Assembly: GCA_025363575.1 (NCBI GenBank)
Contig: JANYDM010000182.1
Coordinates: 1 to 56,430, forward strand
Reading direction: 5' to 3'
DNA from: Betaproteobacteria bacterium
GTDB lineage: Bacteria > Pseudomonadota > Gammaproteobacteria > Burkholderiales > SG8-41
DNA length: 56,430 nucleotides
Shown here: positions 12,859-56,430 of the stretch, piece by piece
Position numbering within the stretch: the stretch's first letter is position 1
How the letters are laid out: each line of letters starts with the position of its first letter
Made by a program: the position numbers and the translations under genes
Notes under the pieces: generated by a model
The model's database searches: none
The model's input: the letters and a program-made list of their open reading frames with translations, nothing else
What the model was told of the DNA's origin: nothing

Positions 12859-13851
12859 ATGAGCGTTGAAGTGCTGGTGGTGCTGGTTGTGGTCGCGCTG
12901 CTTTTCGATTTCATGAACGGCTTTCACGATGCCGCGAATTCGATCGCGACCATCGTATCGACCGGCGCGATGCGTCCGCAGTATGCAATCGTGTGGGCCG
13001 CGTTCTTCAACTTTGTCGCTTTCCTGTTTTTCGGGCTGCATGTCGCGGGGACCGTGGGCAAAGGCATCATCGACCCGCTGATCGTCGATCACCACGTCGT
13101 ATTCGGCGCGCTGACCGGCGCCATATTCTGGAACGTAATTACATGGTACTACGGCATACCGTCGAGCTCTTCGCACGCGCTGATCGGCGGCCTGGCGGGC
13201 GCGGCAGTCGCCAAAGGCGGCGTGCATACGCTGGTAGCGAGCGGTTTTCTAAAAACCGCCGCGGCAATCGTGCTCTCGCCCCTGTTCGGATTCATGCTGG
13301 GCGCGGCCCTGATGATAGCGGTGGCGTGGATCTGGATGCGATCGACGCCACGGCGCGTCGATCGCCTTTTCAACAAGCTGCAATTTGTGTCCGCGGCCCT
13401 TTACAGCATGGGGCACGGCAGCAACGACGCGCAGAAAACCATGGGCATCATCTGGATGCTGCTGATCGCCGCGAGCGTGACGGGCCCCGACGACCCATTG
13501 CCGTTATGGGTGGTTCTGGCGTGTCAGACGGCGATGGGCCTCGGCACGCTGTTCGGCGGCTGGCGCATCGTCAAGACGATGGGCATGCGTATTACCAAGC
13601 TCAAGCCCGTGAGCGGCTTCTGCGCGTCGGCAAGCGGAGCGGCAACGTTATTCATCGCGACCAGCCTCGGTGTGCCGGTATCGACCACGCATACCATCAC
13701 CGGCGCCATTATCGGCGTCGGCTCGGTGCAGAGATTGTCGGCCGTGCGTTGGGGCGTCGCCGGCAATATCGTGTGGGCGTGGCTGTTCACCATCCCGTGC
13801 TCGGCCTTTGTTGCGGCTGTCGCGTGGTGGATCGCCCAGCATTACTTCTAG
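12859..13851 (+). CDS. pit: Low-affinity inorganic phosphate transporter (PiT family)
   Basis: This is a 330-aa inner-membrane transporter of the PiT family. Both inverted PiT signatures are present: GFHDAANSIATIVSTGAM (21-38) and GHGSNDAQKTMGII (185-198). The NDA/HDA residues form the phosphate and cation site. It is the second gene of a DUF47-pit operon. With ppk1 and a possible Pho box at the start of the window, this is the phosphate-handling part of the region. A hairpin terminator follows. Confidence 0.94.
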   Translation: MSVEVLVVLVVVALLFDFMNGFHDAANSIATIVSTGAMRPQYAIVWAAFFNFVAFLFFGLHVAGTVGKGIIDPLIVDHHVVFGALTGAIFWNVITWYYGIPSSSSHALIGGLAGAAVAKGGVHTLVASGFLKTAAAIVLSPLFGFMLGAALMIAVAWIWMRSTPRRVDRLFNKLQFVSAALYSMGHGSNDAQKTMGIIWMLLIAASVTGPDDPLPLWVVLACQTAMGLGTLFGGWRIVKTMGMRITKLKPVSGFCASASGAATLFIATSLGVPVSTTHTITGAIIGVGSVQRLSAVRWGVAGNIVWAWLFTIPCSAFVAAVAWWIAQHYF

Positions 13852-46733: not shown

Positions 46734-47699
46734 TCAGGCAGCAGCGCGTACCTTTTCGCGCAGGGCGCGCAACGGCCCGCCCTGCTTGATCGATCCCGGC
46801 AGCGGGTGGTCGACGATGTCTTCGGCAAGGCGCGCGGCTTCTATCAGCAGGTCGAGATCGACGCCGGTGTCGACGCCCATCTCCTCGCTCATGAACACGA
46901 GGTCTTCAGTGCAGATGTTACCTGCGGCGCCCTTGTGCGCGGCGAACGGGCAACCGCCGAGCCCGGCGACGCAGGCGTCGTAAACCCCCACGCCCATTTC
47001 GAGCCCGGCGTACGCGAGCGCAACCGCCATGCCGCGCGTGTCGTGCAAATGCAGCGACAGGCGCTGATCGGGATATTTGTTGCGTACTGCCCCGAGCACC
47101 CGCTTCAACGACAGCGGCGTCGCCCATGCCATGGTGTCGGACAGGTTGAGCGTCTTGATCGTGAGATTGTGCTCCGCAGCGAGGTCGAAAATCTGCTGCG
47201 TGATGTTCAGTACGCGTTCGACGGAGATGTCGCCTTCGAAGTTGCAGCCGAACGCCGCCATGATGGAGCCGCGATCGACCGGCACGCCGTGCTTTTTGTA
47301 CATCTCTATCATGCCGTGCTGCGCGTCGTAGTTTTCCTGCAGCGTGCGCTTTTGATTGCGCTTGACGAATGCTTCCGACGCGGTGAGCGAAATAATGCCG
47401 GTCGTGTCGAAGCAGCCGCTGGCGATCGCGCGCTCGAGGCCTTTCTCGTTCAGCGACAGCGCTTCATAGCGCACGCCGGGATGCCGCTTGAAGCCGGCGG
47501 CGACTTCGTCCGCATCGGCCATGCCGGGAACGTTTTTCGCGGGCACGAACGAGCACACCTGGATCTGCTTCAGCCCCGTGCGCGACAGCGCGTCGACGAG
47601 CTCGATCTTGCGCGCCGTCGGGATCGGCCCCTTCTCGAATTGAAAACCTTCGCGCGGGCCCTGCTCGTAGATGTGCACGGATGTCGGCAGATCGCTCAT
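46734..47699 (-). CDS. Hydroxymethylglutaryl-CoA lyase-like TIM-barrel enzyme
   Basis: This 321-aa HMGL-like protein has YEQGPREGFQFE at the metal-site start, SLHLHDTRGMAVAL with the paired histidines, and the catalytic-loop GLGGCPFAAHKGAAGN with its cysteine. In authentic HMG-CoA lyase the first motif reads GPRDGLQNE. Here the metal-binding Asp is Glu, which suggests a related but distinct C-C lyase substrate. GAGGAG precedes ATG 47699. It forms a probable operon with a Bug receptor, hinting that the imported acid becomes a CoA ester cleaved by this enzyme (inference). Confidence 0.85.
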   Translation of the reverse strand: MSDLPTSVHIYEQGPREGFQFEKGPIPTARKIELVDALSRTGLKQIQVCSFVPAKNVPGMADADEVAAGFKRHPGVRYEALSLNEKGLERAIASGCFDTTGIISLTASEAFVKRNQKRTLQENYDAQHGMIEMYKKHGVPVDRGSIMAAFGCNFEGDISVERVLNITQQIFDLAAEHNLTIKTLNLSDTMAWATPLSLKRVLGAVRNKYPDQRLSLHLHDTRGMAVALAYAGLEMGVGVYDACVAGLGGCPFAAHKGAAGNICTEDLVFMSEEMGVDTGVDLDLLIEAARLAEDIVDHPLPGSIKQGGPLRALREKVRAAA

Positions 47700-47889
47700 G
47701 GTGTGCTCCTCGCTTGAATTGACGCGGCACAAGGCAGTTGGGCGCCGCGAATTGATATCGCCCTTGCAGCAGGCATCAGCCGCAAGAATAGCATCCGGCG
47801 CGCGCAGCGGAAAGTACGGCGGCCGGCAGTTGCCAAGTCGCCGCGCTTAATGCATAAAGCACATTCTCTACACCAATCCTCCTATCGAC

Positions 47890-48702
47890 ATGCCTGTTGC
47901 ACGCATTACACCTGACCTCGAAATGCATTACGAGATCGACGATTTCACCGACCCCTGGCGCGAGGCCGAGACGATATTGATGATTCACGGCAATGCCGAA
48001 CGCGGCTCGTCGTGGTACGGCTGGGTGCCGCATCTCGCGCGCGATTTTCGCATCGTGCGGCCCGACACGCGCGGCTTCGGCGAATCGACAGTGATGCCGC
48101 GCGACTTCAAATGGACGATCGACCTCGTGGTCGATGACTACCTCGCGCTCATGAAGCAGCTCGGCATCGAGCGCTTTCATCTCATCGCGGCCAAGCTCGG
48201 CGGCACCATCGCGCGCCACTTTGCGGCGCGCTGTCCCGACCAGGTGCTGACGTTGACGGTAGTCGGGACCCCGCCGCCGAACTGGGACCGCATGGGCGCG
48301 AAGGCAGCGCACTCGACCGACGAGCTCGAGAAGCTGGGCGTCGAAGCGTGGGCGGCCAAAAACATGAGCAAACGCCTCGGCAGCAAATTTCCCAAAGAAG
48401 GCGTCGAGTATTGGACCAAGCTGATGGGCCGCTCGGCGGCGTCGACCATGGTCGGCTTCGGCGAAACGATCCCGTACACCGATATCACCGCCGATCTGCC
48501 GCGCATCAAGTGTCCCACGCTCGTCATGACAACGGAGGCGAGTGCGCTGGGCTCCGTCGAGTCGACCCGTGAGTGGCAAAAGCTGATTCCGAATTCGGAG
48601 CTGCGCGTGATACCCGGCGATTCCTATCATCTTGCCGCGACGGACGCGGACTGTTGCGCCGAAGAGGCCCGCGAATTCATACTGAAACATAGAAAAAAAT
48701 GA
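47890..48702 (+). CDS. Alpha/beta-hydrolase-fold protein lacking the nucleophilic serine
   Basis: This 270-aa alpha/beta hydrolase fold has the oxyanion-hole region LMIHGNAERGS, RPDTRGFGES and a C-terminal histidine in GDSYHLAATD. The nucleophile elbow, normally G-x-S-x-G, reads LIAAKLGGTIA, with Lys102 (AAG, 48193-48195) in place of serine. AAG is not one base from a serine-elbow TCG-type codon, and the surrounding fold is well conserved, so this looks like a natural variant rather than an error. Ordinary esterase action is doubtful. It overlaps the next Bug gene by four bases (ATGA). Confidence 0.85.
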   Translation: MPVARITPDLEMHYEIDDFTDPWREAETILMIHGNAERGSSWYGWVPHLARDFRIVRPDTRGFGESTVMPRDFKWTIDLVVDDYLALMKQLGIERFHLIAAKLGGTIARHFAARCPDQVLTLTVVGTPPPNWDRMGAKAAHSTDELEKLGVEAWAAKNMSKRLGSKFPKEGVEYWTKLMGRSAASTMVGFGETIPYTDITADLPRIKCPTLVMTTEASALGSVESTREWQKLIPNSELRVIPGDSYHLAATDADCCAEEAREFILKHRKK

Positions 48703-49667
48703 AAATTTCATGCACGCAGGCGTTGGCTGCGCTGTTGTTCGCCGTGCTCGGACTGCAGGCGGCCGCGCAAGACTATCCGCATAAACCCATCCGCATCATC
48801 GTGCCTTATCCGCCGGGTGGCCCGAGCGACATGCAGGCGCGCCTCGTCGGCATCGAGCTGACGAAAGCGTGGGGCCAGACTTCGGTCATCGACAATCGCG
48901 GCGGCGGCAGCGGCATCATAGGCACTGAAATGGCGGCACATGCCGACGCCGACGGTCACACGCTGATCCTGATGTCCGCCACCAATGCGGTGCAGCCGGC
49001 GCTTTATCCGCAGCTGCCGTTCGATCTCGTGCGCGATTTCGCGCACATCACGCTGATCACGTCCGGGCCAGGCATCATGGTCGTCAATCCTTCGTTGCCG
49101 ATTCGCTCGGTGCCGGACTTTATCGCTTACGCCAAGGCGCGGCCGGGCAAAGTATTTTTCGGCTCGGCCGGCAATGGCGCGCCCAGCCACCTCGCGGTCG
49201 AGTTGCTGAAAGTCATGGCGCAGATCGATGTCGTGCATGTGCCTTATAAAGGCATGGCGCCTGCGCTGACCGATGTGATAGGCGGCCAGCTGCAGTTCAG
49301 CATCCCGACGATCGCCGGCGGCCTGCCGCTCACGCGCGCCGGCAAACTCCGTGCGCTTGCAGTAACCGGTGCACATCGCTCGCCGGCGGAGCCCGGCCTG
49401 CCGACGATAGCGGAGGCGGGTGTGACCGGCTATCAGGCGTCCAATTGGTACGGCTTCGCCGCGCCCGCGAAAACGCCGCGCGCGCTCGTCGACAAGCTCA
49501 ATCGCGAATTTGCGCGCATTATGGCTGCTGCTGAGGTACGCGAGAAACTCATCAATGTCGGGATGGAGCCCGGCACGATGACACCCGAGCAGTACACCGC
49601 GTTCGTCAAAGCCGAAGTCGTGAAATGGGGAAAGGTCGTTAAAGCCGCGGGCATTAAGGCCGACTAG
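48699..49667 (+). CDS. Bug/TctC-family periplasmic solute receptor (10)
   Basis: This 322-aa receptor is translationally coupled to the alpha/beta-hydrolase gene (ATGA). The signal peptide ends AAAQDYP and the ligand loop is PYPPGGPSDMQARL. Its C-terminal codons and stop are part of a 28-bp unit that is duplicated in tandem just downstream. Confidence 0.93.
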   Translation: MKISCTQALAALLFAVLGLQAAAQDYPHKPIRIIVPYPPGGPSDMQARLVGIELTKAWGQTSVIDNRGGGSGIIGTEMAAHADADGHTLILMSATNAVQPALYPQLPFDLVRDFAHITLITSGPGIMVVNPSLPIRSVPDFIAYAKARPGKVFFGSAGNGAPSHLAVELLKVMAQIDVVHVPYKGMAPALTDVIGGQLQFSIPTIAGGLPLTRAGKLRALAVTGAHRSPAEPGLPTIAEAGVTGYQASNWYGFAAPAKTPRALVDKLNREFARIMAAAEVREKLINVGMEPGTMTPEQYTAFVKAEVVKWGKVVKAAGIKAD

Positions 49668-49740
49668 AAGCCGTCGCAAAATGCGGGCCGAGTAGAAGCC
49701 GTCGCAAAATGCGGGCCGAGTAAGCCGTCGGTAGTTGCAA
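49658..49740 (+). repeat. 28-bp tandem duplication at the 3' end of Bug receptor 10
   Basis: The unit at 49658-49685 covers the last codons and TAG of the receptor. It is copied at 49686-49713 with one mismatch (GGCCGA[C/G]TAG start). A third, degenerate partial copy runs to about 49740. It probably arose by slippage. Confidence 0.85.
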
Positions 49741-49843
49741 GCCGACTAGCAGGTCCGCGCGGCGGCGGCCACCAATTTGCAGTTTACTCCCGCGTTTGCT
49801 ACAACGTTTGCTTCCTGTCTGCCCGTTTGCATCTCCTCTGCTC

Positions 49844-50980
49844 ATGACGCTTTACCTCACGCTGGCGCTGGCGTTTTTCAACATGACCGGCGTGCGCGCG
49901 TCACGCGTGCTGGCCGTGCTCTATGCGATCAAGCTGGGCGCGCAGCCATTCACCATAGGCGCGCTCGCCGCGACGTTCGCGCTGTTCCCGCTGCTGCTCT
50001 CGTGGCCGGCCGGACGCATCGTCGATCGTTACGGCCCGCGCACGCCGCTGCTGCTCGGCGCGCTCGGCAGCGCCGTGGGCTTGCTGCTGCCTTGCTTCTG
50101 GCCTTCACTGGCGGCGGTGTTCATCGCGGCCGCGACGAGCGGAATCGCGACGACGTTTTTCAGCATCGCGCTGCAAAACATGGTCGGCGTGCTGTCGACT
50201 GTCGAAAACCGCGCGCGCAACTACAGCAATTACGCGATGGCGATTTCGATGGCGGCTTCCGCCGGGCCGATGCTCGCGGGATTTTCGTTCGACAGCGTCG
50301 GGCCCGCGGTGGCGTTTCTGTTCGGCGCGCTCTGCTTCACGGTGCCGGCGGCGATGCTCGCATTGTGGGGCGCGATGCTGCCGCGCGCCAAGCCAAGCAA
50401 GGCGCCGCCCATGAACGTGCGCGCCACACTCACCAACCCGGGCGTGCTGCCCGTGCTCATCGCGAGCAGTCTGGCGCAGACCGGGCTCGATATCTTTCAG
50501 TTCTATATCCCGGTCTACGGGCATGGCAACGGACTGTCGAGCGCGGCAATCGGCGTGGTGATCGCGATGTGCGCCATCGGCGGTTTTGCGGCACGGGTGA
50601 TACTGCCGTCGTGGATTGCGCGGCACAATGAAGAAAAAGTCCTGTCCCAGGCACTGGTGCTGAGCGGCCTGAGTTTCGTGTTGGTGCCGTTTTTTACGGG
50701 CGCGCTGGCGCTGTCGATGATCGCACTCGTCTTCGGTTTCGGCCTCAATGTCACGCAGCCGATTTCGCTGATGATCATGTACGCGCGCTCGCCCGAAGGG
50801 CGTTCGGGCGAAGCGCTCGGCGTGCGCTTTGCGGCGGACAACGCGACCAAGCTGGTCGGCCCCGTGATCTTCGGCGCGATTGCCGCTGCGCTCGGCGTGG
50901 CGCCGCTCTTCTGGATCAACGCGGTGATGATTGCGGGCGGCGGCCTGCTGATTCATCCAAGGCGCGGGCAGAAAAAATGA
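49844..50980 (+). CDS. MFS transporter (paralogue of the one at 7944-9134)
   Basis: This is a 378-aa major facilitator with about twelve helices. The signature loop is SWPAGRIVDRYGPRTPLLL; other features are NYSNYAMAISMAASAGPMLA and GLNVTQPISLMIMYARSPEG. ATG 49844 has no good ribosome site, and a TTG at 49796 would add 16 residues. The stop overlaps the next Bug gene's ATG (ATGA), so transporter and receptor are made together. That suggests a common ligand, although MFS carriers normally need no binding protein. Confidence 0.87.
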   Translation: MTLYLTLALAFFNMTGVRASRVLAVLYAIKLGAQPFTIGALAATFALFPLLLSWPAGRIVDRYGPRTPLLLGALGSAVGLLLPCFWPSLAAVFIAAATSGIATTFFSIALQNMVGVLSTVENRARNYSNYAMAISMAASAGPMLAGFSFDSVGPAVAFLFGALCFTVPAAMLALWGAMLPRAKPSKAPPMNVRATLTNPGVLPVLIASSLAQTGLDIFQFYIPVYGHGNGLSSAAIGVVIAMCAIGGFAARVILPSWIARHNEEKVLSQALVLSGLSFVLVPFFTGALALSMIALVFGFGLNVTQPISLMIMYARSPEGRSGEALGVRFAADNATKLVGPVIFGAIAAALGVAPLFWINAVMIAGGGLLIHPRRGQKK

Positions 50981-51942
50981 GATGCAGCTGTTTACGTATT
51001 GCGGCATTCCTGCTTGCTTCGGCAGCCCTGCACGCGGCGGCGCAAAGCTATCCAACCAAGCCGATACGCGTGGTGCTGCCCGTCGCGCCCGGCGGCGGCT
51101 CCGATATCATAGTGCGCGTGGCGACGCAGAAAGTCGCGGCAGCGATCGGCCAGCAGTTCGTGGTGGATTTTCGGGGCGGCGCGAACGGCAACATCGCTTA
51201 CGAGCTGGTAGCACGCGCCGCACCTGACGGCTATACGCTGCTGTGGGTGAATGCCGGCTTCGCCACGAATGCGAGCATGTACCGCAAGCTCGCGTACGAT
51301 CCGGTGCGCGATTTCACACCTATCACCCAGCTTACGAGCCAGAGTTACGTGCTCGTCGTCCATCCGTCGGTGCCGGCAAAGAGCGTGGCGGAATTCGTCG
51401 CGCTGTCGAAAGCGCGCAAGGGCGGCTTTGTCTATGCATCGACGGGCGCCGGCTCGCTGCCGCACCTTGGCATGGAGTTGTTCAAGCTGAAGTCCGGCAT
51501 AGCCGGCACGCATATTCCGTACAAAGGTGCCGGCCCCGCGCTGATCGACCTCATCGGCGGCCAGGTCGACGTGATGATGCCGACGATGATCGCCGGCACG
51601 CCATTTGCGAAAAACGGCAAGCTGCGCGCGCTGGCGCTGACAGGTGCGAAACGCTCATTGCTGCTGCCCGCGGTGCCGACGATCGCCGAGCAGGGCTATC
51701 CGGGATTCGAAGTCAGCGGCTGGTACGGCATGCTCGCGCCTTCCGGCACGCCGAGGGAAGCGATTACGCTGCTTCATCTGGAAATCGCAAAGGCGCTGAA
51801 GCTGGCCGAAGTCGCGGAACGCCTCGCAGGCGACGGCGCGGTGGCGGTCGGCAACACGCCGGAAGAATTTGGCGCATACATTAAATCCGAAATGGCGAAA
51901 TGGGCGCCGGTCATCAAGGCATCCGGCGCTACCGCGGACTGA
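50977..51942 (+). CDS. Bug/TctC-family periplasmic solute receptor (11)
   Basis: This 321-aa receptor overlaps the MFS stop by four bases. The signal peptide ends HAAAQSYP. The ligand loop is LPVAPGGGSDIIVRV, and the next segment is altered to VVDFRGGANGNIAYE (Phe for the usual Asn). It is followed by a repeat element and a decayed gene. Confidence 0.93.
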   Translation: MRCSCLRIAAFLLASAALHAAAQSYPTKPIRVVLPVAPGGGSDIIVRVATQKVAAAIGQQFVVDFRGGANGNIAYELVARAAPDGYTLLWVNAGFATNASMYRKLAYDPVRDFTPITQLTSQSYVLVVHPSVPAKSVAEFVALSKARKGGFVYASTGAGSLPHLGMELFKLKSGIAGTHIPYKGAGPALIDLIGGQVDVMMPTMIAGTPFAKNGKLRALALTGAKRSLLLPAVPTIAEQGYPGFEVSGWYGMLAPSGTPREAITLLHLEIAKALKLAEVAERLAGDGAVAVGNTPEEFGAYIKSEMAKWAPVIKASGATAD

Positions 51943-51950
51943 TTACACTT

Positions 51951-52007
51951 AAGTGCGCAGCACTTTTCTCACCTTCCCCTTCACGGGGAAGGCGGGATGC
52001 GGATGGG
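51951..52007. repeat. Dispersed C/G-rich repeat element, copy 1
   Basis: Contains GTGCGCAGCACTTTTC followed by ACCTTCCCCTT-CAC-GGGGAAGG, a perfect hairpin, then GGGATGCGGATGGG. Copy 2 at 54331-54476 shares the same opening and ACCTTCCCCTT core. It sits at the junction where the CMD gene loses its N-terminus. Confidence 0.6.
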
Positions 52008-52289
52008 TAAAATAGTAATCGAATGTCACGCGCTGGCCGAGGGTCTGACAGACGTGCAACTGAAGGCGCTCGCGGATTGGCGCCCGTCGACGCTGTTCGA
52101 CGCGACTGAGCGGGCGGTGCTCGCGTATACCGATGCGATTACCGACCATATCAAGGTAAGCGAGGATATCTCGCCGCCGTGCGACCGTTGTTCGACGGCC
52201 GCCAGCTGGTCGAGCTCACGGGCACCATAGCCGCGTATAGTTTCGTCTCGCGCTTTATGGCGGCGCTCGAAATCGAGCCCGGGGATTGA
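51997..52289 (+). pseudogene. Carboxymuconolactone-decarboxylase-family remnant, truncated and frameshifted
   Basis: The first frame gives HALAEGLTDVQLKALADW and LFDATERAVLAYTDAITDHI, typical of the middle of CMD/AhpD-like proteins. After GATATC (about 52165-52170) the family sequence continues one frame over as AAVRPLFDGRQLVELTGTIA and FVSRFMAALEIEPGD, ending TGA 52287-52289. One missing T would explain the shift. The N-terminal half, including the usual CxxxH redox motif, is absent and replaced by a repeat element. Clearly a decayed gene. Confidence 0.75.
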
Positions 52290-52305
52290 ATCAAAAGGGT
52301 GAAGG

Positions 52306-53127
52306 ATGAAAAGTAACGCCGCACTGAAATTCACGTCGTGCATGGCGGAGAACGCCGAGTCGACGTGCAGCGCCATCGTCGGCTATCTCGGGCACAGGCT
52401 GGGCCTGCAGACGGAGTTTGTCGACGGCATCCCCTGGGAAGAGCGCGAGGCGCTCCTCGATGCGGGCCGCATCCAGGTATGCTGGATCTGCGGACTGCCG
52501 TACGCCTGGAAGGCGGACGCCACCGACGCCGCGATTGAGATCTGTGCGGTGCCGGTGATGCTAGGTACGCGCTATGCGGATTGTCCGGTGTATTTCTCCG
52601 ACGTGGTCGTGCATCGCGCGAGCACTTACTCGTCGTTCGCGGACCTGCGCGGCGCGGCCTGGGCGTACAACGAGCCGCGCTCGCACTCCGGGCACAACGT
52701 CGTACGACATCATCTGGTGACGCTCGGCCATCGCTCGGGATACTTCGGCCGTGTCGTCGAGTCGGGCGCGCATCAAAGGTCATTGCGCATGATCGTCGCT
52801 GGCGAGATCGACGCGTCCGCGATCGATAGTACCGTGCTGGAGGCGGAACTCGCGCGGCATCCGCATCTCGCCAGCGACATCAAAGTCATAGCTACCCTGG
52901 GCCCGAGCCCGATGCCGCCGTGGGTCGTGCAGAAGAGCCTGCCGCAGAATCTGCGCAGTGATTTGAAAGCGGCACTGCTCGAAATGCATACGGATCGCGC
53001 GGGGGCCGCGATTCTCGCGAGCTGGCGCATCGCGCGCTTTGTAACGGCGGCCGACGCGGATTACGATCCGTTGCGCAATATGGCGCGTGCGGCGGCGGAC
53101 GTGCAGCTGGGGTTGCATGCACAGTGA
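52306..53127 (+). CDS. PhnD-like phosphate/phosphonate-type binding protein without signal peptide
   Basis: This 273-aa protein of the PBP2 class is similar to phosphonate-binding PhnD. Visible blocks are GYLGHRLGLQTEFVD, ALLDAGRIQVCWICGLPYAW, YFSDVVVHRASTYSSFADLR and AWAYNEPRSHSGHNVVRHHL. No export signal is visible at the start, so it may be cytoplasmic or have a mis-set start, although GAAGG is well placed. No phnC or phnE genes are adjacent. Confidence 0.83.
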   Translation: MKSNAALKFTSCMAENAESTCSAIVGYLGHRLGLQTEFVDGIPWEEREALLDAGRIQVCWICGLPYAWKADATDAAIEICAVPVMLGTRYADCPVYFSDVVVHRASTYSSFADLRGAAWAYNEPRSHSGHNVVRHHLVTLGHRSGYFGRVVESGAHQRSLRMIVAGEIDASAIDSTVLEAELARHPHLASDIKVIATLGPSPMPPWVVQKSLPQNLRSDLKAALLEMHTDRAGAAILASWRIARFVTAADADYDPLRNMARAAADVQLGLHAQ

Positions 53128-53187
53128 TGCGCAGCCGATGATCGCGTTGCTCGAGCAGGCTGGCGCGAGATAGCGACGGAGCTAAGG

Positions 53188-53934
53188 ATGACAGCGCGCG
53201 CCTCCCTTGCACTTGTGACCCTGACTTTGGCGGCATGCAGTACGCCGCCGGCGCCACTGCTGCCGCACGCGGATTTGCCGGTCATCGTGCGGCCATCGCC
53301 CAATTTCGACGAGCGCCGGCCCAACTACGTGGTCCTGCACTATACGAGCAACGATAGCGCTGAACCGGCACTGCGCACGCTGACTGATCCCGCGAGCAAG
53401 GTCAGCGCGCACTATCTGATTGCGCGCGATGGCAAAACCCTCGCGCTTGTCGACGAGCGTGCACGCGCATGGCACGCCGGCGTTTCGTACTGGGGCGGTG
53501 ATCGAGATGTGAATTCCGCATCTATCGGCATTGAGCTCGATAACAGCGGCAAGGAGGAATTTGCCGCGCCGTTGCTCGATTCTCTCTATGCGCTGCTGGC
53601 GGACCTTAAGGCGCGCTATGCGATTCCGGCGGCGAATTTCATCGGTCACAGCGACGTGGCGCCCCGGCGCAAGCCGGATCCCGGCGCGTTGTTTCCATGG
53701 CGGGAGCTTGCGGCGCGCGGTTTCGGCTTGTGGTGCGATCCGCCCTATCGCGTGCCGCCCGCGGCGGAGGGCGTGACATTGCTGACGGCGTTTGGCTACG
53801 ACACGTCGAACGAAGCCGCGGCGATCGGCGCTTTCAAACTGCATTTCGCGCCAGACGGCGATGTGCGCGAGCTCACAGACGGTGATCGCGCGCTGCTTGC
53901 CTGCCTCATCGACAAGAAGCGCACGGCGGAATGA
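53188..53934 (+). CDS. amiD: N-acetylmuramoyl-L-alanine amidase, AmiD-type lipoprotein
   Basis: This 248-aa amidase_2 protein cleaves between MurNAc and L-Ala of peptidoglycan or anhydro-muropeptides. The lipobox is LTLAACS (Cys17). Zinc and catalytic residues are in VVLHYTSN, GIELDNSG and FIGHSDVAPRRKPDPGALFP, matching the E. coli AmiD pattern (His, Glu, His, Asp). The C-terminal helical part resembles a peptidoglycan-binding tail. Its stop overlaps the hslR ATG (ATGA). Confidence 0.92.
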   Translation: MTARASLALVTLTLAACSTPPAPLLPHADLPVIVRPSPNFDERRPNYVVLHYTSNDSAEPALRTLTDPASKVSAHYLIARDGKTLALVDERARAWHAGVSYWGGDRDVNSASIGIELDNSGKEEFAAPLLDSLYALLADLKARYAIPAANFIGHSDVAPRRKPDPGALFPWRELAARGFGLWCDPPYRVPPAAEGVTLLTAFGYDTSNEAAAIGAFKLHFAPDGDVRELTDGDRALLACLIDKKRTAE

Positions 53935-54323
53935 GCGTAGAGCACGGCCGCGTGCGTATCGACAAGTGGCTGTGGGCCGCGCGCTTTTTCAAGACGCGCG
54001 CGCTGGCGCAGGCGGCGGTCATCGCGGGCAAGGTGAGACTTTCTGACGAGCGCATCAAGCCGTCGAAAGACGTGAAGACCGGCGACGTACTCGTGGTCCG
54101 CGTCGGCGAATTCGAATGGAACGTCACGGTCGCGGCACTCGCCGAACGCCGCGGTCCGGCCGACGAGGCGCGCAAGCTCTACGTGGAGAGCCCCGACAGC
54201 ATTGCACGGCGTGTCGCGCAAATTGCCGACCGCAAAGCTGCGGGTGGTTCGTTCGGCGAGCGCAAAGGCCGTCCGACGAAGCGAGAGCGGCGGCAGATCA
54301 TTAAATTTCGCGAGGGTACTTAG
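53931..54323 (+). CDS. hslR: S4-domain RNA-binding heat-shock protein Hsp15
   Basis: This 130-aa protein has the S4 domain opening VRIDKWLWAARFFKTRALAQ and GKVRLSDERIKPSKDVKTGD. A basic C-terminal tail includes GRPTKRERRQIIKFR. Hsp15 binds stalled 50S subunits carrying nascent chains and helps recycle them. It is translationally coupled to the amidase gene; a repeat element follows. Confidence 0.94.
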   Translation: MSVEHGRVRIDKWLWAARFFKTRALAQAAVIAGKVRLSDERIKPSKDVKTGDVLVVRVGEFEWNVTVAALAERRGPADEARKLYVESPDSIARRVAQIADRKAAGGSFGERKGRPTKRERRQIIKFREGT

Positions 54324-54477: not shown

Positions 54478-56217
54478 TTACTTCGCTCGCTCCGCCAGCA
54501 GCGTCGACCAATCCTTCGGCAATTGGATTTTCTTCGCGGTGGGAAAGCCCAGAAATCCGTTGTGGCCGAACACGTAAGCATTGTTGCGCAGCGGATCGCC
54601 GCCGACCGCGATCATGAAATCTTCCGGCTTCCACACAATGGGGATGCGCCGATGAGGATCGTCGGACTCGTAGAAGGCTTTTGGCATGCGATCGTGCGTG
54701 ACCTCGTCTTTCAGGTCCCACACGCCGCGGATGTTCCAGTCGCGCAACTGCCGCTCGAACTCGAACGCGGTGATGCGCGCGTGGTCGTAAAGATATCTCT
54801 GCACGTCGGATTTCTTCCAGCCTGCTTTCGCAATGGTTTCCGCGATGATGGGCGTGATGACCGCGAGCGGGCGCAGGCTTCCCGGTCCGTGGCTCGTCGT
54901 GAAGGTGATCTGCCAGTTGTTGAACTTGACCAGCGAGTCGGCAAGGTACGGCAGCATTTCCTCGGGCGTGCTGCCGGTGACTGACGATAGCGAACCGCCG
55001 CCGGTATAACGCGAGACGGTCACCGTGTTGTCACCTGCCTTGAAGCCCATGTCGGCGGAGATAGTCGACCAGCCGATGGACTTCAGCACGTCCTCGTTCT
55101 CAGCAAGAACCACGCGCCACGTATTGCCAAAGGTCGCCTTGTCGGTCTTGTGCAGCAGGAAGCCGGCAACGTTGCGTAAGTAGAGGCGCCAGAAACGGCC
55201 GACGCTGGTGTTGGGCACGAAGCCGTCGCGCATGGCGCCCTGCAAATAATTGAAATCGAGCTCCTTGATGATGGGGCCGTTCAGGATGATGAGCGTGTCG
55301 CCGCCCGGCGTGTTGCCGCTGTGCTCGACGCCGTACTTGGGATCGCACATTGCTTCGATAAGCGCCACCAGCACGGGCATATATTCGGGGCGGCAGCCGG
55401 CCATCACGCCGTTGACGGCGACACTCCATACCGTCGCGGCGCGCTTGTCGGGCAGCAGCACGCCCAGCACTTCGTCGGGCTCACGGTCGGTGAATTTGAG
55501 AAACTCTTCTATCGCAGCTTTGGTCGGCGGCACGATAGGCAAACCATCCGCATACTCGTGCTCTTGGAAATAGCGGTTGACTGCGCTGAAGCCGCCTTTG
55601 ACGACGATATCGCGCGCGCCGGGCTCGCTGTGATCGCCGGGCGCCTTCGTTACCACCGTAAGATTTTGTACGATCGCCTGCATCGTCACGCCCAGGATGT
55701 CGCGGCGCAGGTCTTCCTTGCTCTTGGTGCCGATATGGCCGGGCACGAGCGCGAGCGGAATATTGCGCATGCCCAGCCCGATCGAAGTCGCCGCAGCCTG
55801 CTTGAAAAAGCCTTCACAGGTCAGCGAAGAGGTCGGATAGCCCGCCGCTTCGCATGCCGCACTTGCCCGCAACACGGCGGGCGTGCAGCTGCCTCAACAC
55901 GCCATGCCGGAAATGACGGCGTCGACCCCCAGCTCCTTGAAGCGTTTGGGCAACGCATCCAACGTGTCCTTTTCGTCGCCGCCATGCGTGCTGCCCAAAT
56001 CGCGCCAGCTCACGAATTTTATGCCGGGGAATTGTTTCTTGAGACCCTCTTCGAGCAGCTCGAACACTTCATCGCCTTTGAAAAGATAGTCCCACAACTG
56101 CGCGACCGTCTTGCCCTCGAGCGAGTCAAGCCGCGGCGCCAGCGCGCGTGTTTTCTGCTGGCGCGCGCCGCGCGGCCAGCAGGCTTCGAAATAGCCGTCG
56201 TTACTTTGTTGCGTCAT
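54478..56217 (-). CDS. UGSC-motif selenoprotein with in-frame TGA read as selenocysteine
   Basis: Two open frames (54478-55875 and 55894-56235) lie in one frame and are split only by TGA at 55894-55896. Read through, the gene gives about 579 aa, with Sec108 in GMAC-U-GSCTPAVLRAS; Cys107 and Cys111 flank it. A SECIS-like hairpin starts four bases after the TGA. The N-terminal part (about 1-190) has DYLFKGDEVFELLEEGLKK, DALPKRFKELGVDAVISG and LGMRNIPLALVPGHIGTKS. The C-terminal part has EYADGLPIVPPTKAAIEEFL, VNGVMAGCRPEYMPVLVALI and SGNTPGGDTLIILNGPI. The U/C-GSC motif places it with the UGSC (seleno)protein family, presumably thiol/selenol redox; exact activity unknown. ATG 56217 follows GGGGG. 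A downstream fragment starting inside would lack the active site. Confidence 0.85.
55856..55889 (-). promoter_or_regulatory. bSECIS-like hairpin for selenocysteine insertion
   Basis: On the mRNA strand, counting T of the TGA as base 1, GCCCGC (15-20) pairs perfectly with GCGGGC (27-32) around the loop CGUGUU. After a two-base AA bulge, bases 8-14 pair with 35-41 (GCUGCAC with GUGCGGC, one G-U). The apical loop begins 17 bases after the UGA and has a G at its second position with GU steps, as bacterial SECIS elements require. It lies wholly within codons for CTPAVLRAS. Confidence 0.8.
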
Positions 56218-56251
56218 TGTTAAGCCCCCAGTCATTCATTCAAAGCTGGCC

Positions 56252-56277: not shown

Positions 56278-56327
56278 AAAACAAACCGGAGTACCCGACC
56301 TAATCCACGATTTTAATTTTTGATTTT

Positions 56328-56430
56328 CTCTGTGCTCTCTGTGCTCTCTGTGCTCTCTGTGCTCTCTGTGCTCTCTGTGCTCTCTGTGCTCTCTGTGCTC
56401 TCTGTGCTCTCTGTGCTCTCTGTGCTCTCT
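56328..56430. repeat. 9-bp tandem repeat array, truncated by the window end
   Basis: The unit CTCTCTGTG is repeated about eleven times without visible error to the last base. With the inverted copies at 56252-56277 it forms an inverted-repeat pair around a 50-base AT-richer spacer. The true length is unknown. Confidence 0.95.

Follow-up and report, generated by a model that had tools for sequence, protein, structure and literature searches.

A fused UGSC-family gene with a very likely selenocysteine codon and a separate C-terminal partner domain on a betaproteobacterial contig

Here, we describe a gene on the minus strand of contig JANYDM010000182.1 (GenBank assembly GCA_025363575.1, Betaproteobacteria bacterium), positions 1 to 56,430 of which were analysed and are referred to below as the window. 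The gene presents itself as two open reading frames (ORFs), and as a whole is best explained as one two-domain member of the UGSC family in which an internal UGA is very likely read as selenocysteine (Sec) within a predicted redox-active Sec-x-x-Cys motif (probability about 0.9). Decoding of the TGA as Sec, proposed in an initial annotation, is supported by the exchange of TGA and Cys among homologues, by a hairpin with frozen codons and by sel genes in the relatives. That annotation was very likely right about the UGSC selenoprotein; it missed that the C-terminal two thirds of the protein belong to a second, separate family.

Reading frame and probable selenocysteine codon

The minus-strand ORFs 54478-55875 (465 aa, GTG start) and 55894-56235 (113 aa) are in register and parted by one TGA, as had been described earlier with no strand named. 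With the TGA taken as a residue, they become a single frame with one internal TGA in the context G-M-A-C-U-G-S-C-T-P. The earlier figures of 579 aa for the protein and residue 108 for Sec hold when counted from the ATG at 56217, and an alternative in-frame ATG at 56235 gives 585 aa (protein P0001) with Sec as residue 114. Homologues begin to align at about the second ATG. Residue numbers below follow P0001, except for Sec108, which is counted from ATG 56217.

Membership of the UGSC family was corroborated with the Pfam UGSC profile (PF24696, gathering cut-off 25 bits), which scored 94.7 bits across the TGA of the joined protein (residues 19-192, profile positions 3-170 of 172). The same profile matched the separate 465-aa and 113-aa ORFs with 33.9 and 26.8 bits, respectively, and since it matches each fragment as well as the whole joined protein, one domain spans the TGA. 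The annotation loss foreseen for such a gene is real. Among the 120 database proteins listed, 119 have lengths of 430-469 aa and span 73-79% of the window protein, as would fit a start downstream of the TGA (directly seen in the four that were fetched), and the sole other protein, P0103, is a full-length Cys form. Because the listed forms, judged by length, mostly start past the UGA, the predicted active site is lost in databases.

A scan of contigs from one genome per species returned 24 loci, 21 of which cover the site in 22 genes (L017 has two; L019, L023 and L024 are fragments without the site). TGA occupies the site in all 22 of these relatives' genes, which are 63-87% identical, and its recurrence across separate assemblies excludes the sequencing error for which the initial annotation had allowed. 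The same annotation had left it to homologues to tell whether Cys or Sec stands at position 108, and both occur: besides the TGA of the close relatives, Cys was found in 16 of 16 full-length homologues among the matches listed (P0103, P0122-P0131, P0241-P0245), with neither Trp nor Arg at the site among the homologues examined. The second Cys of the Sec-x-x-Cys motif is kept in all 20 members of alignment A7. The internal TGA is thus very likely a selenocysteine codon. Two irregular relatives were seen, the L004 gene with an extra stop besides its Sec TGA, and a UGSC paralogue outside A7 (L043, G001:C84) that reads UGSS with the TGA retained.

The selenocysteine machinery is well represented in the 22 genomes behind these loci. 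There, selA scored above cut-off in 22 genomes, selB in 20 (fragmented in G008 and not found in G017), tRNA-Sec in 21 (not G017) and selD in 21 (not G007), with all four together in 19, and the same cut-offs gave 1, 2, 5 and 2 matches, respectively, in 14 control genomes. Where selD was above cut-off, it carries one in-frame TGA of its own in 19 of 21 genomes. Of 299 genomes drawn evenly from the phylum, 35 had selA above cut-off and four had UGSC, with TGA and selA in G001 and G161, and with Cys and selA below cut-off in G165 and G299, a correspondence drawn from four genomes, which are few. The G299 gene does hold a TGA, which lies elsewhere than the Sec site, itself Cys. G001 is the closest relative of the window (L001): three blocks within 46738-54316 keep the same gene order at 77-78% DNA identity, and the window gene and its G001 counterpart are 83% identical in DNA. 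The tRNA-Sec anticodon is TCA in all five sel loci that were fetched; in the Geodermatophilaceae, according to the accessible text of one report (PMC5330540), UGSC-motif selenoproteins occur with a tRNA-Sec whose anticodon is CUA.

A predicted SECIS hairpin and the number of paralogues

Bacterial selenocysteine insertion sequence (SECIS) elements carry an apical loop of 3-14 nt situated 16-37 nt from the UGA. The window hairpin begins right after the TGA and agrees with this description, with a loop of 6 nt (CGUGUU) 17 nt downstream of the UGA. Its folding z was -2.69 for 51 nt and -3.25 for 49 nt, and weaker in longer stretches (-1.69 to -1.97 for 67 to 141 nt). Rfam gave no match to the hairpin.

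We further examined a codon alignment of 22 genes, comprising the window gene and 21 relatives (L022, whose site is TGA, was omitted for its broken alignment). Exactly five of the 122 amino-acid-invariant codons with at least fourfold degeneracy keep one codon in all 22 genes, and these five are consecutive (P119-R123, P-A-V-L-R) and lie inside the hairpin (hypergeometric p = 2.9e-8, for a conservation noticed before testing and among related genes). The other 117 do vary. With degeneracy of at least two, 193 codons are invariant and six are frozen, the sixth being Cys113 (TGT) directly before the TGA. Three genomes have at their sel locus a fused paralogue, 39-43% identical, that contains these same 16 nt (L045, L046 and L047); the gene in L046 (also fetched as L028) folded no better than shuffles (z -0.72).

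Canonical UGSC genes carry a different hairpin. Across 12 sequences, 100% of cells are paired and 6 cells are changed on both sides, which for pairing and both-side changes was reached by 0 of 500 shuffles, two other measures being reached by 40 of 500. The loop motif of this hairpin is absent from six distinct Cys-coding UGSC genes.

Two exact DNA patterns, one per hairpin type, matched 86 and 211 sites, respectively (297 in the 22 genomes), with matches in 22 and 21 of the genomes and 0 matches for reversed control patterns; these genome-wide counts are those of the exact patterns, and at least two known G001 genes (L029, L043) escape the second pattern. The sites were verified as genes in G005 only, a betaproteobacterial metagenome-assembled genome (MAG; L114-L137), where each of the 27 sites fetched yields a UGSC domain that runs through the TGA and 11 have the window-type hairpin. 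For all 27, a counterpart of the C-terminal domain was found, in the same frame for 18 and elsewhere in the fetched stretch for 9, some of the UGSC frames running off the contig or the fetched stretch. This number of paralogues, 27 genes in one MAG, compares with 33 UGSC selenoproteins in 26 organisms in the accessible text of a 2016 survey (PMC5029168). UGSC is counted as one of the major selenoprotein families in published aquatic metagenomes, as far as the accessible texts go.

Partner domain, remote relatives and gene neighbourhood

The C-terminal part, which we call the partner domain, has no assigned family, as no Pfam or NCBIfam model matches residues 197-585 and PHROGs gave no match to the protein. 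Six partners of canonical UGSC genes gave, in Pfam and NCBIfam, weak thioredoxin-type matches in two and two further matches at chance level; the thioredoxin-type matches are confined to two partners with an extra N-terminal domain. In L032 and L044, the partner is fused to an N-terminal domain that contains CETC and resembles thioredoxin. A relative of the C-terminal part is encoded beside the UGSC gene or, in L040, fused to it in 15 of 15 distinct UGSC loci of the phylum draw (11 in G001, two in G161, and one each in G165 and G299). The UGSC count in G001 is a lower bound, with PF24696 having been scored for 11 of 38 candidates there. In G001, the partner was found in 11 of 11 UGSC regions vs 0 of 20 control regions, which were hand-picked, not random, at a distance from the UGSC or sel genes that their contigs also carry. 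Within the partner domain, Cys281 (AGCRPEYMP) is invariant in 61 aligned fused-form sequences, the window included, and has a counterpart in 11 partners of canonical UGSC genes.

The window protein shares with the canonical UGSC family (PF24696; NF041046) its UGSC domain, its U-x-x-C motif and the exchange of Sec and Cys. It differs in being only 15-24% identical to the canonical members aligned, in having C-U where most canonical members seen have D-U, and in a SECIS stem that is built differently. We regard the window gene as very likely a divergent, fused variant of this known family. A description of both the family and a fusion of UGSC dates from 2008 (PLoS Genet, PMC2398784, as far as its accessible text goes), and the Unknown_1 of that paper may or may not be our C-terminal domain. 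A 2026 review, in its accessible part, counts UGSC among selenoproteins that were nearly all found bioinformatically and whose biological functions are largely uncharacterised. The accessible UGSC literature, mostly without subscription papers, names no function, neighbouring partner gene or expansion, the 2008 fusion aside. New in the present analysis are the presence of the partner at every locus examined, the TrxB-like genes and sel loci found nearby, the distant similarity to PrdB/GrdB and the number of paralogues.

A model of the UGSC domain (predicted local distance difference test score, pLDDT, 86.5) has mostly Rossmann-like proteins among its listed structural neighbours; in the accessible text of the 2008 paper (PMC2398784), a thioredoxin fold had been suggested. 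A fold search with the complete protein returned a list full of Rossmann folds; the C-terminal part was therefore modelled on its own, and its structural matches were weak (the class I fumarase alpha domain was compared). Sequence searches of the PDB with the window protein, the UGSC profile and the partner profile returned nothing significant.

A further parallel lies in PrdB/GrdB (PF07355, TIGR01918, TIGR04483), the selenoprotein B of the D-proline, glycine, sarcosine and betaine reductases, which has Sec-x-x-Cys at the same place in a domain remotely similar to UGSC. Aligned with hhalign, the UGSC and PrdB-like profiles gave E = 2.7e-4 (probability 42%) with 5 sequences, and E = 5.6e-5 (66%) with 11 sequences, the Sec-x-x-Cys columns being in register. 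The score was 48.9 (89%), while 60 column shuffles reached no more than 22.4 and a reversed profile 13.4; with the motif masked it was 39.3 (63%) vs 18.4. Single-pair E-values with one null model amount to limited evidence, but the signal extends beyond the motif. The similarity is remote and at the level of profiles: P0001 gave no GRDB (PF07355) match at E up to 1 (HMMER filters drop most above about 0.1), and the partner profile showed no relation to the PrdB-like profile. A sequence search of the PDB with the PrdB-like profile found no solved relative, so the relation is one of sequence profiles only. The relatives of the window gene considered here are, moreover, betaproteobacterial MAGs.

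PrdB-like proteins (L015 and L090-L112) are also found in these genomes themselves, with 18 genes, each with one in-frame TGA, in 17 of the 22, and two more in G161. In the four genes inspected, the TGA lies within the motif PVUPNC. One of them, in L015 (1080-2348), stands about 100 nt upstream of a UGSC gene on the same strand. The GrdB and PrdB reductases have a pyruvoyl-forming partner subunit, PrdA or GrdE, and glycine reductase receives its electrons from thioredoxin. NCBIfam lists no PrdA or GrdE match for six of the partners described above, with no PrdA/GrdE alignment made.

Thioredoxin reductase-like (TrxB-like) genes recur in the neighbourhood. The sel locus of G001 (L045, 3582-10895) reads, on one strand, selA, selB, a TrxB-like gene, selC, a TctC receptor and a fused UGSC selenoprotein, and of the five sel loci fetched, all have a TrxB-like gene and four a UGSC gene. 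On an Arthrobacter plasmid, the run is trxB, trxA, partner, UGSC, an arrangement that recalls thioredoxin/thioredoxin reductase systems, from which the UGSC domain itself differs in its predicted Rossmann-like fold. TrxB-like genes also occur close to UGSC or partner genes on two Variovorax plasmids, which with the Arthrobacter plasmid makes three of five plasmid loci (none in L050 and L053). One is present in the first of two G161 loci but not in the second, another lies about 3 kb off in G165, and the G299 locus is without one. All six TrxB-like proteins inspected retain CxxC. The UGSC protein of the Arthrobacter plasmid (L054, 9012-9827) also has a C-terminal NifU-like stretch, at 27.2 vs a Pfam cut-off of 27 bits.

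TctC-type (tripartite tricarboxylate) receptors were considered as specific partners and set aside. They number 2.2 per 15 kb at UGSC genes vs 1.2 in the 20 G001 control regions, and the link is weak because G001 is rich in TctC throughout. The window itself holds eleven TctC-type matches within its 56 kb.

Table 1. Features of the probable selenoprotein gene in the window
Feature	Position	Strand	Remark
Two-domain UGSC selenoprotein gene	54478..56217	minus	579 aa, internal TGA very likely read as Sec
In-frame TGA, predicted Sec codon	55894..55896	minus	residue 108 of 579, 114 of P0001
Cys117 codon (P0001 numbering)	55885..55887	minus	second residue of the Sec-x-x-Cys motif
UGSC domain (PF24696), predicted Rossmann-like alpha/beta, with Sec-x-x-Cys	55660..56181	minus	
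Predicted SECIS hairpin core, GCCCGC-CGUGUU-GCGGGC	55865..55882	minus	apical loop 17 nt past the UGA
C-terminal partner domain, no Pfam/NCBIfam family	54481..55647	minus	
Cys281 codon of the partner domain (AGCRPEYMP)	55393..55395	minus	

Possible chemistry and rival readings

Together with the partner gene, the TrxB-like neighbours and the PrdB/GrdB tie lead us to infer a two-part selenoenzyme that is driven by a thioredoxin reductase and reduces a small substrate. Electrons from NAD(P)H would pass through the TrxB-like flavoprotein to the UGSC selenenylsulfide, either directly or via thioredoxin, and the selenolate might then reduce a small organic substrate bound by the partner domain, in the manner of GrdB/PrdB. 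More tentatively, and with the odds somewhat against it, UGSC and partner may constitute an unrecognised class of two-component selenoenzymes driven by thioredoxin reductase, counterparts of the anaerobic glycine and proline reductases in uncultured betaproteobacteria, with up to dozens of copies per genome, each pair tuned to a different TctC-delivered small substrate; such enzymes could then be a main reason for keeping the sel operon, which in several genomes carries one. The partner gene, the TrxB-like genes, the PrdB/GrdB tie and the sel-locus paralogue provide testable handles on UGSC chemistry.

Several observations weigh against the reading favoured here. The NCBIfam UGSC equivalog NF041046 scored 41.1 bits, below its curated cut-off of 125, and the window protein must therefore be seen as a divergent UGSC member. 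With regard to the electron donor, the 11 G001 UGSC regions contain no TrxB-like gene, nor do the flanking stretches fetched for orthologues of the window gene, and the TrxB-like donor is for this reason proposed by inference. A pseudogene, an erroneous TGA or two separate proteins would agree with the way in which gene callers split the gene, the short forms making up nearly all of the listed database proteins, but this account is highly improbable and in practice already refuted by the TGA that all 22 relatives' genes share across separate assemblies, along with the conservation of both halves, the one Pfam domain across the TGA and the five frozen codons just after it. Were TGA reassigned genome-wide to another amino acid, or read through leakily, the frame would be open under any sense reading as well; however, TGA terminates five of the eight family-identified window genes checked, which makes a change of the whole code very unlikely. 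The listed full-length homologues moreover have Cys, not Trp or Gly, at the site, and with the TCA anticodon of the relatives' tRNA-Sec in every sel locus fetched, we give reassignment or leakage next to no credence.

Alternatives that accept the selenoprotein and alter its chemistry carry more weight. A general thiol-disulfide oxidoreductase or peroxidase for stress defence, rather than a reductase of metabolic substrates, would fit the Sec-x-x-Cys motif, the CETC thioredoxin-like domains on two partners and the TrxB-like neighbours. We nevertheless consider this unlikely, given that the partner at every locus examined and the many paralogues per genome (27 in G005) better suit substrate-specific enzymes, and that the UGSC fold is predicted to be Rossmann-like, with PrdB/GrdB as the remote relative. 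Sec could instead serve catalysis without redox chemistry, as in an isomerase or lyase, with the partner as a dehydratase-like domain, a role that we think distinctly improbable in light of the second Cys of the motif, kept throughout A7, and of the reductases near several loci. The single invariant Cys in the partner domain of the fused form is also too few for a three-Cys iron-sulfur cluster.

Elsewhere in the window, a tRNA-Pyl called by ARAGORN at 13220-13305 (anticodon CTA) is very likely false, as Rfam gave no match there even at E 1. Seven of the MAG records used here (L002, L003, L007, L010-L012 and L022) bear labels that look misassigned, six as Bordetella parapertussis and one as Chitinophaga pinensis. 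Finally, positions 56327-56430 consist of a perfect 9-bp tandem repeat, TCTCTGTGC, in 11.6 copies that reach the end of the window and perhaps mark an assembly break.
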